Source of the DNA: Prorocentrum cordatum
Taxonomy: Eukaryota; Sar; Dinophyceae; Prorocentrales; Prorocentraceae
Assembly: GCA_963575745.1 (NCBI GenBank)
Contig: CAUYUJ010015691.1
Location: 87,001 to 151,000 of the forward strand
DNA length: 64,000 nt
Direction of reading: 5' to 3'
In this document: in pieces, positions 2,756 to 52,210 of the stretch
How positions within the stretch are numbered: the stretch's first letter is position 1
Layout of the letters: every line of letters begins with the position of its first letter
Notes under the pieces: generated by a model
Databases searched by the model: none
What the model saw: only the letters and a program-made list of their open reading frames with translations
Told to the model about the DNA's origin: nothing
Made by a program: the position numbers and the translations under genes

Positions 2756-3085
2756 TCCTCCTCCTCCTCCTCCTCCTCCTCTTCCACATCCTCTTCCTCC
2801 TCCTCCTCCTCCTCCTCTTCTTCTTCCTCCTCCTCCTCCTCCTCCTCCTCCTCATCCCCCTTCCTCTCATCGACCTCCTGCTCCTCATGCCGCTCTTCCT
2901 CGACCTCGTGGCACTCTTGCTGCTGCTGCTGCTCATGCTCCTACCTGTTCCCCCTTATCCTCTTCCTTCTCCTTCTTTTCCTCCTCTTCCTCCTTCTCCT
3001 CCGACTCCTGATCCTCCTCATCCCCCCATTTCACTCTGGGTTTCCTCATCTTCCCCCTCCCTTCTCCTTCTCCTACTCCTCTAAC
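2756..3085. repeat. Imperfect (TCC)n polypyrimidine tract
   Basis: About 330 bases of TCC/TTC trinucleotides with few purines. It is the opposite strand sense to the GGA tracts just to the left. The 289 bases between them (2467-2755) are GC-rich and show no recognisable feature. Confidence 0.93.
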
Positions 3086-14030: not shown

Positions 14031-14137
14031 TGAGCAAAACCGGCTACTGATGACGAGAGTCCAAACGCAAACGTCGCTTCAAACCCGCATCCGGCCACTC
14101 TTGGCCGCAATGGCCTCAGATGATGTATTTTTCCTTC

Positions 14138-33605: not shown

Positions 33606-34023
33606 GTGCATAGCTTCCTGGGCGATCCTGCAGTGCGTGATTGCACGCCTCTTGGTCATTCGAACTGGGCTCTCGGTCTTCCGTCCTGTGACGAGCTTCC
33701 CGAAATCCCTGCAGCTGTGGCAGACTCGCTTTGCCGGGTGCTTGCCCTCGACGGGCATGCGTTGGCCGAGTCCCGCGCTGCGAGCCTCGAGCACTGGCGG
33801 CAGCGCAGGCGCGTGCTGGACCCACTGTGGGCGGGCAAATTCGCGGGTTTGCCTGCGCACGTCCGCAGCGTTCTTGGTCCGAAGAAAAACTTGCTTGTTC
33901 TGTCGGAGATGCGATCGGCAGGCCCGACGACTGGCTGGTGCGCGACCTGCAGAATGGTTTCCCTCTGATTGGCGAGATTCCGCGCAGCGGGGTTCTGCCA
34001 CGCATCCCTTTTTCTGTTCCCTG
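33606..34023 (+). pseudogene. DIRS RT N-terminal part, copy 3
   Basis: The frame includes SRAASLEHWRQRRRVLDPLW, FAGLPAHVRSVLGPKKNLLV and, after a frameshift near 33915, DDWLVRDLQNGFPLIGEIPR followed by SGVLPRIPFSVP. Copy 1 has LPAHCQSVLGLDKNLLLVAE and KFGFPLIGELPRSGILPPVP at the same spacing. The similarity stops where the 49-bp satellite starts, before RT motif A. Confidence 0.75.
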
Positions 34024-35097
34024 TTTTCGCGCCCTCCCGAATGACCGCGCCCAGAATTGCAGTCTGAGCCTGTCTTCGCGTTCTCCCGAGCGGGCGCGCC
34101 CAGAATTGCAATCTGAGCATGTTTTCGCGTTCCCCCGAGCGGGCGCGCCCAGAATTGCAATCTGAGTTTGTTTTCGCGCTCGCCCGAGCGGGCGCGCCCA
34201 GAATTGCAATCTGAGCTTGTTTCCGCGCTCTCCCAAGCGGGCGCGCCCAGATTTGCAATCTGAACCTGTTTTCGCGTTCTCCCGAGCGGGCGCGCCCAGA
34301 GTTGCAATCTGAGCCTGTTTCTGCGCTCTCCCGAGCGGGCGCGCCCAGAATTGCAATCTGAGCCTGTTTCCGCGCTCTCCCAAGCGGGCGCGCCCGGAAT
34401 TGCAATCTGAGCCTGTTTCCGCGCACTCCCGAGCGGGCGCGCCCAGAATTGCAATCTGAGCCTGTTTTCGCGTTCGCCCGAGCGGGCGCGCCCAGAAATG
34501 CAATCTGGGCCTGTTTCCGCGCTCCCCCGAGCGGGCGCGCCCGGAAAAGCAATCTGAGCTTGTTTTCGCGCTCTCCGCCCTCCCCCGAGCGGGCGCGCCC
34601 CGAATTGCAATCTGAGCCTGTCTCCGCGCTCTCCCGAGCGGGCGCGCCCAGAATTGCAGCGTGCGCCTGTTTTCGCGCTCTCCCGAGCGGGCGCGCCCAG
34701 AGTTGCAATCTGCGCTTGTTTCCGCGCTCCCCCGAGCGGGCGCCCAGAATTGCAATCTGAGCCTGTTTCCGCGCTCTCCCGAGCGGGCGCGCTCAGAATT
34801 GCAATCTGAGCTTGTTTTCGCGTTCTCCCGGGCGGGCGCGCCCAGAATTGCAATCTGAGCTTGTTTCCGCGCTCTCCCGAGCGGGCGCGCCCAGAAATGC
34901 AACCTGAGCTTGTTTCCGCGCTCCCCCGAGCGGGCGCGCCCCGAATTGCAATCTGGGCCTGTTTCCGCGCCCCCCCGAGCGGACGCGCCCATAATTGCTT
35001 CCTGAGCCTGTTTTCGCGCTCTCCCGAGCGGGCGCGCCCAGAAATGCAATCTGAGCATGTTTTCCCGCTCTCCCGAGCGGGCGCGCCCAGAACTGCC
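34024..35097. repeat. 49-bp satellite, about 22 copies, family F
   Basis: AGAATTGCAATCTGAG starts at 34151 and 34200, and its variant at 34249, a strict 49-base step. Copies are highly alike. On the minus strand all three frames are open over the whole array, because 49 is not a multiple of 3 and no unit carries a stop in any phase. The 49-residue protein period (for example RPLGRARKQAQIAILGAPAR) follows from this. The 20355-21425 array is a diverged relative. Confidence 0.95.
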
Positions 35098-45417: not shown

Positions 45418-45685
45418 AGGAGGAGGAGGAGGAGGAAAAGGAGGAAGAGAAGGAGGAGGAGGAAGAGGAAGGAGGAGGAGGAGGAAGAGGAGGAGAGGAT
45501 GGAGGAGGAGGAGGAGGAAGGACGAGAAGGAGGGGCGGAGGAGGAGGAGGAGGAGGAGGAGGAGGGAGGAGGAGGACGGGGAGGAGGAGGAGGAGAAGGA
45601 GGAGGAGGATGAGGAGGAGGGGGGGGAGGAGGGCGGAGGAGGAGGAGGAAGGGCAGGAAGAGGAGGACGAGGAGGAGGAGTTGTT
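45418..45685. repeat. (GGA)n tract inside the last 145-bp unit
   Basis: GGA with a few GAA and GGG breaks for about 265 bases. It starts directly after CAACGAAGG, a point present in the preceding units without expansion, so the tract grew within the satellite unit. Confidence 0.95.
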
Positions 45686-45867: not shown

Positions 45868-46191
45868 CTAGGAGATATTAAAGAGACGAACAACACTGTT
45901 AGCATCCGCATCAAGCCAGACGTCCGAAAGCTTGGGGTGCTTGCCAGTCGAAATTCTGTCCCAGTAATACTTAGAGCACCTAATATTATGAGGCCTACCT
46001 GGGCACGGTTTAGCCAGGTAGCGAACGCAATTGCCAGCGGAAAACGCCTTACAACGGACACACACACAGACAATGCCGCCGTCCGAACACGCTAATCCAA
46101 GACAGTTGTGCTCCAGCTGCTGCAGGACGTCAACCTGGAGCTTATGCTTCTTGGTGCAAGTCGAATTATTCCGCGGGAAACCCCACGGCAC
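45868..46191 (-). pseudogene. ORF2 C-terminal zinc domain, element 1
   Basis: The frame contains QQLEHNCLGLACSDGGIVCV, CVRCKAFSAGNCVRYLAKPC and GRPHNIRCSKYYWDRISTGK followed by HPKLSDVW. The Cys-x-x-Cys and later Cys, followed by an aromatic-basic segment and G-K-H-P, is shared with the two other non-LTR copies. It likely binds the template or target nucleic acid; this is inference from position and zinc ligands. Confidence 0.6.
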
Positions 46192-47508
46192 ACCGTGAGG
46201 CAGTGATTACACTGCCAGAAACTTCCCACCTTCTTCCAAAGATGGGGCACTTTGACTGGCACTGGTTTCGGCTCGACGGGCGCACGAGTGGCTTCCGACA
46301 GGTCGAGCGGAGGCCAGAGAGGCAGCACACGGGCAGCCAAAACAAAAACCTTGCGAACGACCGACAAGCATTTATCAAGCCACTCTTGCTGCTCAGGGCA
46401 CGGCTTCTCGTGAGCTAGGGCCCCAAGCTTAACATAATGGTCGGCGAGGTCGTTACCCGTCTTACAGAACTTCAGATAGGCATCATTACCCACCTGCTCG
46501 TCCGACATGTGGCCTTTCACTTGATGGATGGGCCCCATTCGACTGTCTGCGGTCCAAACAAACATACCCGAGTGCACTCGCTTATACGACAAGTGTTCAC
46601 TACGAGGGAGGGCCCGCAGAGATACTACATTCTGGCAGTCGCTATACCCCACAGCTGGAGAGACAACATTTTGGCAAGCAGCAGTGCAAGCAGCAACTTC
46701 ACCAGCCTGAGCCGTTTGGGGAATGGGGATCGGGGAGGGGGGCATAGACATGACCCAGCTCCTGCCCAGAATCGGACACCGAGACATAACTCCACCCCGT
46801 CCTCGATAACTCTCTTATGACCGAGCGTATACAAGAACCATCCATGAAGATATTCCCCGAAACTCTATAATCGTCTTTATCCGGATCGTCAACATGCTCA
46901 TGACTGGGCTCGCACATCGATGGGGGTGGGAAGGTGTCACCAGGGTGGGTAAACAGCCCCATCGTGTACATTATCTTGTCAGCATCCGACAGCGAGTCGT
47001 ACTCCAGCGGCCGAAACTGGAACCCTTCTCCGAGGATGTCCTCTCGGGCCTGGGCGACCGACTCGCGCTGGCAGCACCGCAACCTGTGGAAAATGGTGCC
47101 CCTTGCCACGCCGCGCAACGGGCACAACGCGTCAGGCATGATGTAGCCGTGGTCCTCGGCTCGAGCCTTGGTCCAGGGCGCCTGGCAGACAAGACCTCTA
47201 ATGCACCCTTTCTCGAAGGGGGTGAATTTTGAAGAACTCATGGCCGCAAGGGCCGCGTCGAAACAGACTCTACGGCCCAGGCCCAGGGACCGCCCATAAT
47301 CACGTTCAAGATTCCTCAAAACAGCAGTGCGGAGGAGACGTTTCAGGAGGCAAGGCGAAAACAGGGTGAGGGAAACTTCCACCCCCAGGTCGTCGACGAG
47401 CATGCTGAAGCTCGGCATCTTCCACCCAGGGCGCTCCACCGAGAGACGAAGGGCCCCCGCAGGGCCGCGAACGCGACGCCACGGCTGGAGAGGCCCCGAA
47501 AAACCCAC
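46092..47508 (-). pseudogene. ORF2 post-RT module and RNase H, element 1
   Basis: The upstream frame (47508-46699) carries LQPWRRVRGPAGALRLSVER, SKFTPFEKGCIRGLVCQAPW and DALCPLRGVARGTIFHRLRC, the Cys-rich module after the RT. It then reads RVSGNIFMDGSCIRSVIREL, the RNase H start with its first Asp. A frameshift near 46750 leads to the second frame (46787-46092), with SDCQNVVSLRALPRSEHLSY, IHQVKGHMSDEQVGNDAYLK and KTGNDLADHYVKLGALAHEK, the RNase H end, then VGSFWQCNHCLTVC. RNase H would remove the RNA strand after target-primed reverse transcription. Confidence 0.72.
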
Positions 47509-49701: not shown

Positions 49702-50616
49702 AACTCCCCATTCGGATGGGGGGCTCAGGGCAAGGTCCCGCGGGCCGGCTAGTGGGCAAGGGTGGGGGGCGTCGGAAGGTCAAAGCTTTGAGAGACGCAA
49801 GGGAGGGGTGGAAGGTGAGGGAGACAGGGTCATGCGTCGCTAACTCCGAATCGCTCACTATCTTCACGCCTTTAATCGCCTGCGCCAGGCGGGAGCAACA
49901 AAGGAAGAAATCGAACATCTTCACGCCCCCCAGTGCTGCGACAGGTGCCCTCGACACCAGGGGGGTACACAATGTCAGCACCCATCCTTCTGTGAATCGC
50001 CGAGCCTGCTAGCACGGCGGGCTCCAAGTTGAAGTCGGCACCGGCAAGGAACGGCACAGACATGCTCTTTGCTCGCGCCGCTACGCCAGCAAGGATATCC
50101 TGATTGAAATCGCTAAGTCCAACACAATCCTGCAGGTAGACACTAACAACGTAGAAAGAGGTCTGACCTGGGAGGTGGACGACAGCTCCGAGGGCCCTGC
50201 GGGGCCGAATCGTGGGGCCAATATCGGGGTGGTGCAACCCGAGGAAGGACCTAACCAGGACCCCGACCCCAGCCGAAGGGCCCCCCCCAGGCCCCAGGGT
50301 TCCAGGTTCGAAGCTGGCTTTCCACCCGTTTCGCACACACCAGGCCGAAGCCTTCCTGATGTCCTCAGCGCTTATGAGCTTGTGCTCCTGGACGAGCACG
50401 ATGTGGGCCGAGGTAATTCCCAAAAACTGTTGGAGCGAGCTCCAAGCCGTGCCGTTAGCCGTCACTATCTCCAGCTCAATAGACTCATTAGCAGCAACAA
50501 AATCTCCATGGTCCCAAGGGCGATGCAGACACGCATTCCGTGGGGCATCCAAAACTGGGCAGGAGGTAGGGAGTCTAGGGTAGGAGAAAGGTGATGGCTC
50601 GGCACAGGTCTGGCTA
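49649..50616 (-). pseudogene. ORF2 endonuclease, element 1
   Basis: The first frame shows EIVTANGTAWSSLQQFLGIT (Asn), AHIVLVQEHKLISAEDIRKA (Glu), SAGVGVLVRSFLGLHH, YVVSVYLQD (Tyr) and PFLAGADFNLEPAVLAG (Asp-x-Asn), and stops at 49872. The next frame (49981-49649) provides GGVKMFDFFLCCSRLAQAIK and SELATHDPVSLTF, with the final Asp/His. These are the landmarks of apurinic-type endonuclease of non-LTR elements, which nicks the target to prime reverse transcription. The frame is already open through ORF1, so the true ORF2 start could not be set; it begins near the ORF1 stop. Confidence 0.75.
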
Positions 50617-51750
50617 GGAACGAGCCGCCCCCTTGGCTGGGGGGCCCGCTGGTGGCGGCGCCTTCCCGTCTGGGACCGCGGGGGGCGCCTTGTTCGGTGC
50701 CCTGCTGATCGCCTCGCGAGCCTGGGCGCGGACAGAGGCGCCAGGCTTAGAAGGCGGGGCGCCTGGGGCAACAGGCGGCGCAGGGGCGGCCTTGCTTCCA
50801 GCAGCCGAGGCCGACGCTCCCGATGCCTCAGAGGCGGCAGCAGCGTCTCCTGCAGGTGCACCAGCAGCAGCAGGTTCGGCATCCGTCTTCCGCTTCTTCT
50901 CGAGCCGCTTGGCCTGCTCCTGGTGGTTCTTCTTAAGATCGACGCACTTAGACTGAACCTCCCCGAACAGGGCCGTCGTGAGGGTAGTGATACGCTCTGA
51001 CAACTGCTCCTTCCGAGACTGGGCTTCACGTAGGTCTTCTGGGGTAACGTCCTGAAGCTCCGCCAACCCAAACATGTCGCCGTCGTCAAGCACGAACGAG
51101 GACAACTTGCCACCCAGGATGTCCTGCAGGCGCAGCACTGGGGCGACTGGGGCCTCCTGTGGCTGAGACGGCTGGACCGTGACAGACAGGTGCAGCTTTG
51201 AGATGGCAGACTTGTACTCCTCATCGTATCGCTCAAGCTCCTGCAACGTGACCTCCAAGTCCGCGCGCTGCTGAGCCAACTTCCGTTCAAGGCCGTGGAC
51301 GTGGTCCAGATCGCGATCCAACTTCTTCTCGAGTCGCTGGATCTCTTTGAAGGCCGCGTCCGCCCGTTGCTGCGGGGGCAGAGGGGCTTGCGCCAACTGG
51401 GCCACCTTCTCTTGCGCCAAGGAGAGCAGGGACGCGTCCCCCACCTTGGCGCTGAGCTCCGCCAGCTGCTGCAACTCAGACTTGGTCGCAGTCGGGGCGG
51501 TAGCCGGCCGCGCGGGTGGAGGCCTTCCCGACACTGCGTCTGCTGCAGCACGACGAACTTCAGCAGCAGCCGCTCCTCGGGGGACGCCTCCTCCTCTGGC
51601 CTGACCGTCACCTGGCACGGGCTCAGTCCACTTCTTACCGCAATGTTTGCACCACATGTAGTGCCCCAAGTTCTTGCGGCATCCGCAGTGCCCGCAAGTC
51701 CACTTCTTGGTGGCGTCGTAGCCGCTACGAGGCTTGCCACCAGGAGCCAT
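50614..51750 (-). CDS. Non-LTR retrotransposon ORF1 (zinc finger plus coiled coil)
   Basis: A 378-codon frame starts at MAPGGKPRSGYDATKK, 111 bases downstream of the spliced-leader relic. Residues 16-40 form a zinc motif, KWTCGHCGCRKN then LGHYMWCKHCGKKW, close to the RanBP2 type (Trp-x-Cys-x2-Cys ... Asn-x6-Cys-x2-Cys). A long charged coiled coil follows (AAFKEIQRLEKKLDRDLDHV, ERKLAQQRADLEVTLQELER). The C-terminal third is Ala/Pro-rich. An ORF1 of this build would bind the element RNA and form multimers. Unlike ORF2, the frame is intact. The frame is open further upstream only through the GGA tract, so this Met is preferred. Confidence 0.8.
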   Translation of the reverse strand: MAPGGKPRSGYDATKKWTCGHCGCRKNLGHYMWCKHCGKKWTEPVPGDGQARGGGVPRGAAAAEVRRAAADAVSGRPPPARPATAPTATKSELQQLAELSAKVGDASLLSLAQEKVAQLAQAPLPPQQRADAAFKEIQRLEKKLDRDLDHVHGLERKLAQQRADLEVTLQELERYDEEYKSAISKLHLSVTVQPSQPQEAPVAPVLRLQDILGGKLSSFVLDDGDMFGLAELQDVTPEDLREAQSRKEQLSERITTLTTALFGEVQSKCVDLKKNHQEQAKRLEKKRKTDAEPAAAGAPAGDAAAASEASGASASAAGSKAAPAPPVAPGAPPSKPGASVRAQAREAISRAPNKAPPAVPDGKAPPPAGPPAKGAARS

Positions 51751-51860
51751 CGCAGCGCCGCCGTGAGAGGAAAGGGAATCCGAGCCACTCTGGCCCGCGA
51801 ACACCCAGCCGTTCTGAAGATCGGTGATCGCATGCACAAAAATGAATTGTGCCAGAACGG

Positions 51861-51882
51861 CTTGAGCCAAAATGGCTACGGA
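51861..51882 (-). other. Dinoflagellate spliced-leader relic
   Basis: The minus strand reads TCCGTAGCCATTTTGGCTCA followed by AG, equal at all 22 positions to the dinoflagellate spliced leader. Directly downstream, CCGTTCTGGCACAA matches 11 of 14 bases of the leader's inner part, as if a second, older leader follows. Such genomic relics arise when a trans-spliced mRNA is copied back into DNA. It sits 111 bases before the ORF1 Met of the non-LTR element, consistent with the element RNA itself having been trans-spliced. Confidence 0.93.
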
Positions 51883-51888
51883 AAAGAC

Positions 51889-52210
51889 GAGGAGGAGGAG
51901 GAGGAGGAGAAGGAGGAGGAGGAGGAGGGGGAGGAGGAGGAGGAGGAGGAGGAGGAGGAGGAGGAGGAGGAAGAGGAGAAGGAGGAGGAGGAAAAGGACG
52001 AGGAGGCCCCAGGACGAGGACGAGGAGGAGGAGGAGGAAAGGAGGAGGAGGAGGAGGAGGAGGAGGAGGCGGGGGAGGAGGAGGAGGAGGAGGAGGAGGA
52101 CGAGGAGGACGAGGAGAAGGAGGACGAGGAGCACGAGGAGGACGAGGACGAGGACGAGGATGACGAGGAGAACGAGGAGCACGAGGAGGACGAGGGCGAG
52201 GAGGGGAGCC
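51889..52210. repeat. (GGA)n tract upstream of element 1
   Basis: About 320 bases of GGA with GAC and GAA variants start seven bases beyond the spliced-leader relic. Acidic, Arg or Gly frames across it are artefacts. Confidence 0.95.

Follow-up and report, generated by a model that had tools for sequence, protein, structure and literature searches.

The 64-kb stretch of dinoflagellate DNA analysed here (the window, C14842:87001-151000) carries on its minus strand a LINE copy of about 6.2 kb (51885 to 45681, 6205 nt), which is flanked by 15-bp direct repeats within a (TCC)n tract and begins with a complete spliced leader (SL; Table 1). ORF1 is intact and has, going by motif names, what we take to be CxxC-type residues near the N-terminus and a coiled-coil-like middle. 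ORF2 is a remnant whose domains are scattered over several frames and whose reverse transcriptase (RT) box reads YIGD, so this copy would no longer be able to move. An APE endonuclease and a non-LTR RT, an A-rich tail, a target-site duplication (TSD) and the lack of LTRs identify the element as a LINE; judging from its sequence, the window copy is a dead member of an APE-type LINE family. The search for homologous proteins returned one match each for ORF1 (P0001) and the RT (P0002). RVT_1 falls below cut-off on the window RT, and a profile made from this piece and P0002 matches LINE-1 ORF2 and R2 chains and structures. No locus related to ORF1 or the RT was confirmed in the viral contigs searched, and Pfam gave nothing above cut-off for ten other ORFs of the window.

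Table 1. Features of the LINE copy and its flanks, in the order in which the element is read.
Feature	Position	Strand	Basis
5' copy of the 15-bp TSD CTCCTCCTCCTCGTC, in a pyrimidine tract that continues upstream	51886..51900	-	perfect 15/15
Three extra T between target repeat and SL, in neither the target nor the canonical SL	51883..51885	-	sequence
SL TCCGTAGCCATTTTGGCTCAAG, complete, 5' terminus of the LINE copy	51861..51882	-	mismatch search and comparison of copies
AG, last two letters of the SL and first two letters of the element (A1G2) in SL-less copies	51861..51862	-	copy comparison; the TSD of L054/L087 ends immediately 5' of AG
84-nt 5' leader RNA domain, conserved in the family and starting with A1	51779..51862	-	leader comparison
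P1 5' strand AGCCGTTCTG; with H2 includes most of the "second copy"	51853..51862	-	pairing across leaders
Hairpin H2, GCACAA/TTGTGC, variable loop	51834..51852	-	copy comparison
Pseudoknot strand a GCGATCAC	51824..51831	-	covariation test
P1 3' strand CAGAACGGCT	51807..51816	-	pairing across leaders
Pseudoknot strand b GTGTTCGC	51797..51804	-	covariation; the window copy's own pair 7/8
Hairpin H4, GGGCC...GGCTC	51782..51796	-	leader comparison
ORF1, 378 aa, intact, stop ending at 50614; homologue P0001	50614..51750	-	ORF and homologue search
ORF2 remnant, APE-like endonuclease	49875..50486	-	PF03372, 25.5 bits, cut-off 24.5
ORF2 remnant, RT; box YIGD against YVDD in P0002	47592..49235	-	profile and homologue comparison
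ORF2 remnant, possible RNase H (weak)	46095..46814	-	PF00075, E 0.11, below cut-off
A-rich 3' tail AAGAAAACAAAAAAACAACAA	45681..45701	-	sequence
3' copy of the TSD, followed by further CCT/CTC repeat	45666..45680	-	direct-repeat comparison

In a pattern search the SL (51882..51861) matches without mismatch over its 22 nt; it is the sole match at up to three mismatches in the 64-kb window, and 100 shuffles gave none. The original prediction of a full dinoflagellate SL in genomic DNA, in sense orientation upstream of the ORF1 Met, is thus confirmed, with the ATG starting at 51750, 110 nt past the last SL base. The SL is followed by CC and not by the GT donor of an SL-RNA gene (for a contrasting case see L003 below), Rfam gave zero matches at gathering score over the whole window, and the locus has the make-up of an SL-marked retrocopy, that is a genomic SL in sense at a 5' end and without the SL-RNA donor site. 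Because the SL is the 5' terminus of the LINE insertion, it is well supported, as had been suggested, that the element RNA was trans-spliced and that reverse transcription got to the cap-proximal end at least once. At up to five mismatches three SL matches, the exact one included, are seen where 0.12 are expected per window. Two SL-like 21-mers, at 14049 (minus strand, 16/21) and 30877 (minus strand, 17/21), each immediately precede the Met of an ORF; the two ORFs are related (35.6% identical) and share an HxFRRGxA...GGW end that we take to be tyrosine-recombinase-like.

The assembly (4.13 Gb, 21,875 contigs) was searched with the 561 nt that follow the SL. The best 40 of 82 candidates were scored and comprise 22 full-length copies at 91-100% (window copy included), one partial copy at 98% and 17 copies at 69-75%; 30 loci were fetched, 28 of which have an intact start when one variant letter is allowed in the motif (L075 and L082 were dropped). 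Among the close intact-start copies listed, five of 22 bear the SL (L053, L056 with 21/22 letters, L060, L064 and L065), and it is absent from the other 17 as well as from six distant intact copies (L076-L081), which refutes the expectation of an SL constant at the same site in every copy. In the SL-less copies a pyrimidine-rich tract is followed by AG and CCGTTCTGGCACAA, which has one change in L080, and the element starts at AG|CCGTTCTGG; the last two letters of the SL, AG, exactly replace the first two of the family. The 5' ends are therefore discrete and of two kinds: among the 22 close copies five start with the SL, 17 exactly at AG and none in between. On a tree of the 28 copies, the SL label needs at least four changes (gains or losses), four being forced by well-supported branches. 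L064 and L065 go back to a single insertion that was duplicated, their flanks agreeing at 96% over 1463 nt; all other copies are separate insertions, so the SL was captured several times instead of descending from a single master copy. That the SL had reached the genome more than once therefore stands, by a route other than the two rounds originally envisaged for the window copy. A 3'-end query (68 candidates, 40 scored) gave 41 matches, 32 of them close (87-100%); by contig, 19 of these 32 places correspond to an intact start, one (L075) to a 5'-truncated copy and 12 to no match of the 5' query, showing that copies without such a 5' end exist and were missed by it.

The insertions share their target. 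A pyrimidine-rich tract lies 5' of the element in 22 of 22 close copies (by eye, among the matches listed), and of the 12 3' ends sought, 11 were obtained and nine match the element; in all nine a TCC-type repeat follows the A run, so TCC-type sequence flanks the element on both sides. The clearest junction is that of the SL-less copy L054, where a perfect 16-bp TSD, TCATCCTCCTTCCCCT, ends right before AG and restarts right after the A run; its sequence is non-trivial and a repeat of at least 16 arises in 56 of 40000 chance placements. Since this TSD stops just 5' of AG, the AG belongs to the element, and the tract represents the insertion target. TSDs within microsatellites are otherwise weak evidence given their low complexity: the 15 bp of the window copy have a null of 1.7-2.6% in these tracts (5/300 and 1545/60000 placements); among SL-bearing copies, L060 has none, L056 (16) and L064 (31) have low-complexity pure repeats, and for L065 no 3' end was found among those read; the remaining SL-less copies have only low-complexity repeats, some of them off the junction. 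Independent copies in the same simple repeat and in the same orientation, with the pyrimidine strand as sense strand, nevertheless identify a microsatellite-targeted LINE.

Just downstream of the SL, the letters CCGTTCTGGCACAAT agree with CCATTTTGGCTCAAG at 11 of 15 positions (Markov null 3e-4) and had been taken for a weaker second copy of the SL. The letters are indeed there, but they are not a relic private to the window copy: CCGTTCTGGCACAA opens 27 of the 28 intact-start copies, with or without SL (L080 has one change), which overturns a second recycling round of this copy, and the candidate for a tandem truncated relic CCATTTTGGCTCAAG is the family's own conserved 5' end. An ancient origin of the motif from an SL may nonetheless lie behind it. 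A "staircase" of second and third relics, significant by letters, was likewise rejected on reading the other copies.

This conserved 5' end belongs to the structured leader of Table 1, which was compared beyond the close copies. The genome contains 132 occurrences of the 16-mer AGCCGTTCTGGCACAA against one of its reversed control, and in 65 of them 12 pyrimidines plus 3 nt stand immediately upstream. A further 40 leaders were read: 20 were drawn from these 65 and so lie behind pyrimidines by selection, the other 20 from the remaining occurrences. The latter 20 comprise five with SL or SL-like starts, seven behind pyrimidines and eight with neither. In this wider family the SL stands before AG-CCGTTCTGG exactly in L109 and L110 and with one change in L113; SL-like starts are also seen in L097 (truncated) and L106 (degenerate), and a truncated TGGCTCAAG lies behind pyrimidines in L098, L100, L104 and L108. 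For a structure test in fixed register, 51 of the 68 leaders (28 + 40) could be placed, for which H2, at least 8/10 P1 pairs and the beginning of H4 had to be present and the pseudoknot was left out of account; 17 were dropped (13 without a readable H2, 4 without H4). P1 pairs at 9-10/10 in 49 of the placed leaders and at 8/10 in two, at least 8/10 being needed for placing. The pseudoknot helix covaries, with 12 distinct strand combinations and 90.6% of positions paired across the 51 leaders, against at most 52% when the strands are slid by up to three positions and a mean of 73.6% (maximum 85.4%) when partners are re-dealt, where 0 of 2000 trials reach 90.6%; a loose search gives 98% against a null of 82% and is uninformative. 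An HDV-like ribozyme, suggested by P1 followed by GGG, was considered and rejected as a family assignment: the P2 partner is inconsistent across leaders (GCCAG is absent by eye in several, e.g. L094 and L116), leaving no HDV double pseudoknot, and Rfam finds zero families at E 10 in the window's 251 nt around the leader.

How these pieces could act together can be laid out as a cycle. RNA reading out of the pyrimidine tract, with AG just before CCGTTCTGG, would present a trans-splice acceptor, and the cell would join the 22-nt SL at that AG to yield a capped ORF1-ORF2 message, as the copies suggest. Target-primed reverse transcription by the element's endonuclease and RT would then insert a DNA copy of the RNA at another TCC tract. 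An SL-headed message reverse-transcribed in full would leave a copy that begins with the whole SL, as the window copy does, and an RNA whose 5' end is A1 would leave one that begins AG|CCGTTCTGG. The A1 end itself may stem from self-cleavage, from an exonuclease stop, from truncated cDNA or from the start of transcription. Because the last letters of the SL are ...CTCAAG, a message trans-spliced at AG|CC again carries AG before CCGTTCTG; going by the letters, P1 would thus be complete after trans-splicing and both routes would keep the same leader. The target tract would supply the acceptor pyrimidines and the family's AG, or the SL, the AG itself, which we propose helps the next round. The account as a whole, a TCC-homing LINE with trans-spliced RNA and SL-headed or A1-headed copies, appears highly probable from the sequences compared. 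Speaking against it are the low complexity of most TSDs, the eight leaders that lie behind neither pyrimidines nor an SL, the truncated (L097, L098, L100, L104, L108) or degenerate (L106) SL-like starts, and the 17 leaders that did not fit the structure.

Several other readings were weighed against it. The abundance of the SL in the assembly could suggest that the window SL is part of an SL-RNA gene or of an SL tandem array and stands here by chance, a notion which retains practically no probability because no GT donor follows, Rfam is silent and above all the exact SL-element junction recurs in other copies. Two recycling rounds of the window copy, with CCGTTCTGGCACAAT as a decayed older SL, would account for the 11 of 15 letters and for their being in the register known from retrogene relics, and such staircases are recorded in the accessible part of Jaeckisch et al., 2011. 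The motif is, however, conserved in SL-less copies and in families 25-30% apart, it is base-paired (P1 and H2), and the third repeat that was proposed would lie in the variable H2 loop and past it; as an event in the history of the window copy, two rounds are largely refuted and we consider them very improbable.

The A1 ends might instead be cDNAs of SL-headed messages that stopped two letters into the SL. This is the alternative to which we give most room, albeit as an unlikely one: the truncated TGGCTCAAG kept by the related leaders L098, L100, L104 and L108 speaks for it, yet the 22 close copies show no intermediate length. Finally, the CCT tracts beside SLs might not be targets at all but acceptor or promoter sequence selected or gained later. 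A pyrimidine tract plus AG makes a good acceptor, and such a tract could help expression; but the tract also lies 3' of the element in the nine copies whose 3' end was found, the TSD of L054 is inside it, and 11 of the 49 SL sites read across the genome stand behind purine and not pyrimidine tracts, making this explanation very unlikely.

Beyond the family, the SL 21-mer occurs exactly 14,218 times in the assembly (control, 0). We read 49 of 100 listed places (48 loci), a non-random sample taken from the first contigs. Immediately upstream, the 40-mer has a pyrimidine content of 85% or more in 24 places, of 15% or less in 11 and in between in 14, so that 35 of the 49 directly follow a pyrimidine or purine tract. 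At the same loci the background of such tracts is 0.8% (pyrimidine-type) and 5.1% (purine-type) of 48,594 windows, giving binomial tails of 2e-37 and 2e-5, respectively, for 48 sites. A LINE RT on the sense strand is present in six of the 20 SL sites with at least 3.5 kb read downstream (L033, L037, L038, L040, L046 and L048, the last by the P0002 query only), a raw count, with the first RT match 2.8-3.7 kb past the SL. Since the same kind of target adjoins most SL sites read, the sequences suggest that CCT/AGG-homing LINEs also move host messages and are strong candidates for the retrogene machine.

A bolder extension would make the 5' pseudoknot a processing device, either self-cleaving or a 5'-exonuclease stop, whose first two letters are the trans-splice AG. 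From one acceptor the element would then obtain both a translatable message capped with the SL and an RNA without leader that serves retrotransposition. Trans-splicing would rebuild the processing site as the SL ends in AG, and most of the 14,218 SL-headed insertions, including those of host retrogenes, would be the work of such TCC-homing LINEs. We advance this only tentatively, as a possibility drawn from the sequences and on balance doubtful. A 7-bp P1 counted from the AG of the SL is found at 12 of 48 SL sites against 2.5 (maximum 4) when shuffled, a weak signal given that offsets -1 and -2 give 10 and 9.

Other patterns were seen among the SL sites. In the SL-headed L014, L019, L035, L036, L038, L040 and L045, the first seven letters (from AG) pair with a downstream strand although the sequences differ, and several of them then share an AACG-like motif; they are possibly another structured leader class. 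In L008, L013, L018, L020 and L051, the SL is immediately followed by the classic truncated relic CCATTTTGGCTCAAG and stands behind CTC or GAG repeats, and these are likely two-round retrocopies. At L050, an identical SL junction and flank occur twice (355 and 5596), 5.2 kb apart, probably through tandem duplication of an SL-headed unit.

Dinoflagellate retrogenes with a relict DinoSL were reportedly described by Slamovits and Keeling in 2008. They are also treated in the accessible portions of later papers (Jaeckisch, 2011; Song, 2018; Haro, 2025), and the Song 2018 review (PMC6050394), as far as its available text goes, holds the type of retroelement behind them to be unknown and favours LTR elements. 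In these retrogenes, as in the window LINE, a genomic SL heads a retroposed message, but here the message is that of a LINE, which encodes an endonuclease and an RT, and TSD, tail and target allow the mechanism to be deduced. Dinoflagellate genomes are rich in SL-marked retrogenes, and here that mark recurs at the 5' end of a LINE. As most SL insertions read lie at the kind of target that the LINE uses, CCT or AGG repeats, the question of the retrogene machine becomes directly testable, with a simple rule for finding insertions: an SL after a CCT repeat. Titles and the beginnings of abstracts in the literature covered, to which subscription papers are mostly external, held no SL-headed LINE in a dinoflagellate nor its target.

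That transposable elements acquire SLs is not without precedent. In flatworms, the excerpted text reports 597 SL-bearing LTR/LINE retrotransposon loci with partial leaders (PMC12582326), and in Hydra, the part available gives the SL on 30.9% and 29.7% of TE Iso-Seq reads (PMC12220107). The general idea that TE transcripts receive an SL and carry it into the genome is thus already stated in these excerpts; the excerpts contain no insertion anatomy, for which the present copies supply the precise junctions, the TSD, the target and a tree showing repeated capture. Insertion into a simple repeat likewise has parallels: Dong, Kibi and Koshi are microsatellite-specific non-LTR elements. The consulted section of one account describes microsatellite-specific non-LTR elements with restriction-like endonucleases (PMC4640811). 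The present element differs in its TCC repeat, its dinoflagellate host and its APE-type endonuclease, and in that the tract would double as the pyrimidine tract of the trans-splice acceptor; it would be a case of a target repeat and a host SL together rebuilding the splice acceptor of the next generation. As for the leader, R2 has an HDV-like ribozyme at its 5' end. So do L1Tc/ingi of trypanosomes according to the part of the source at hand (PMC4035085). Both resemble the present case in having a structured RNA at the exact 5' end of a LINE, and L1Tc/ingi moreover live in a trans-splicing host. The order of elements here is P1a-H2-PKa-P1b-PKb-H4, without Rfam match, and differs from that of HDV ribozymes.

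SLs were also seen on other contigs. Two exact copies, 147 nt apart (L001:2746-2766 and 2893-2913, minus strand), lie on an AT-rich IMG/VR contig that by composition gives the impression of being giant-virus-like; the second stands in front of a gene of higher GC content, which perhaps stems from a dinoflagellate message retroposed into a virus. At L003 (4334-4354, minus strand) the SL runs into GTACGC in the manner of an SL-RNA gene; its contig is assigned to a Dehalococcoidia MAG and is probably eukaryotic contamination. At L002 (32-52) it lies at the end of a contig, also filed under a Dehalococcoidia MAG and probably chimeric, directly behind a (TCA)n repeat, the SL-after-microsatellite pattern of other SL sites. 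Within the window itself, long tandem arrays with repeats of about 77 and 49 bp occupy positions 1-2166 and 34020-35096, respectively.
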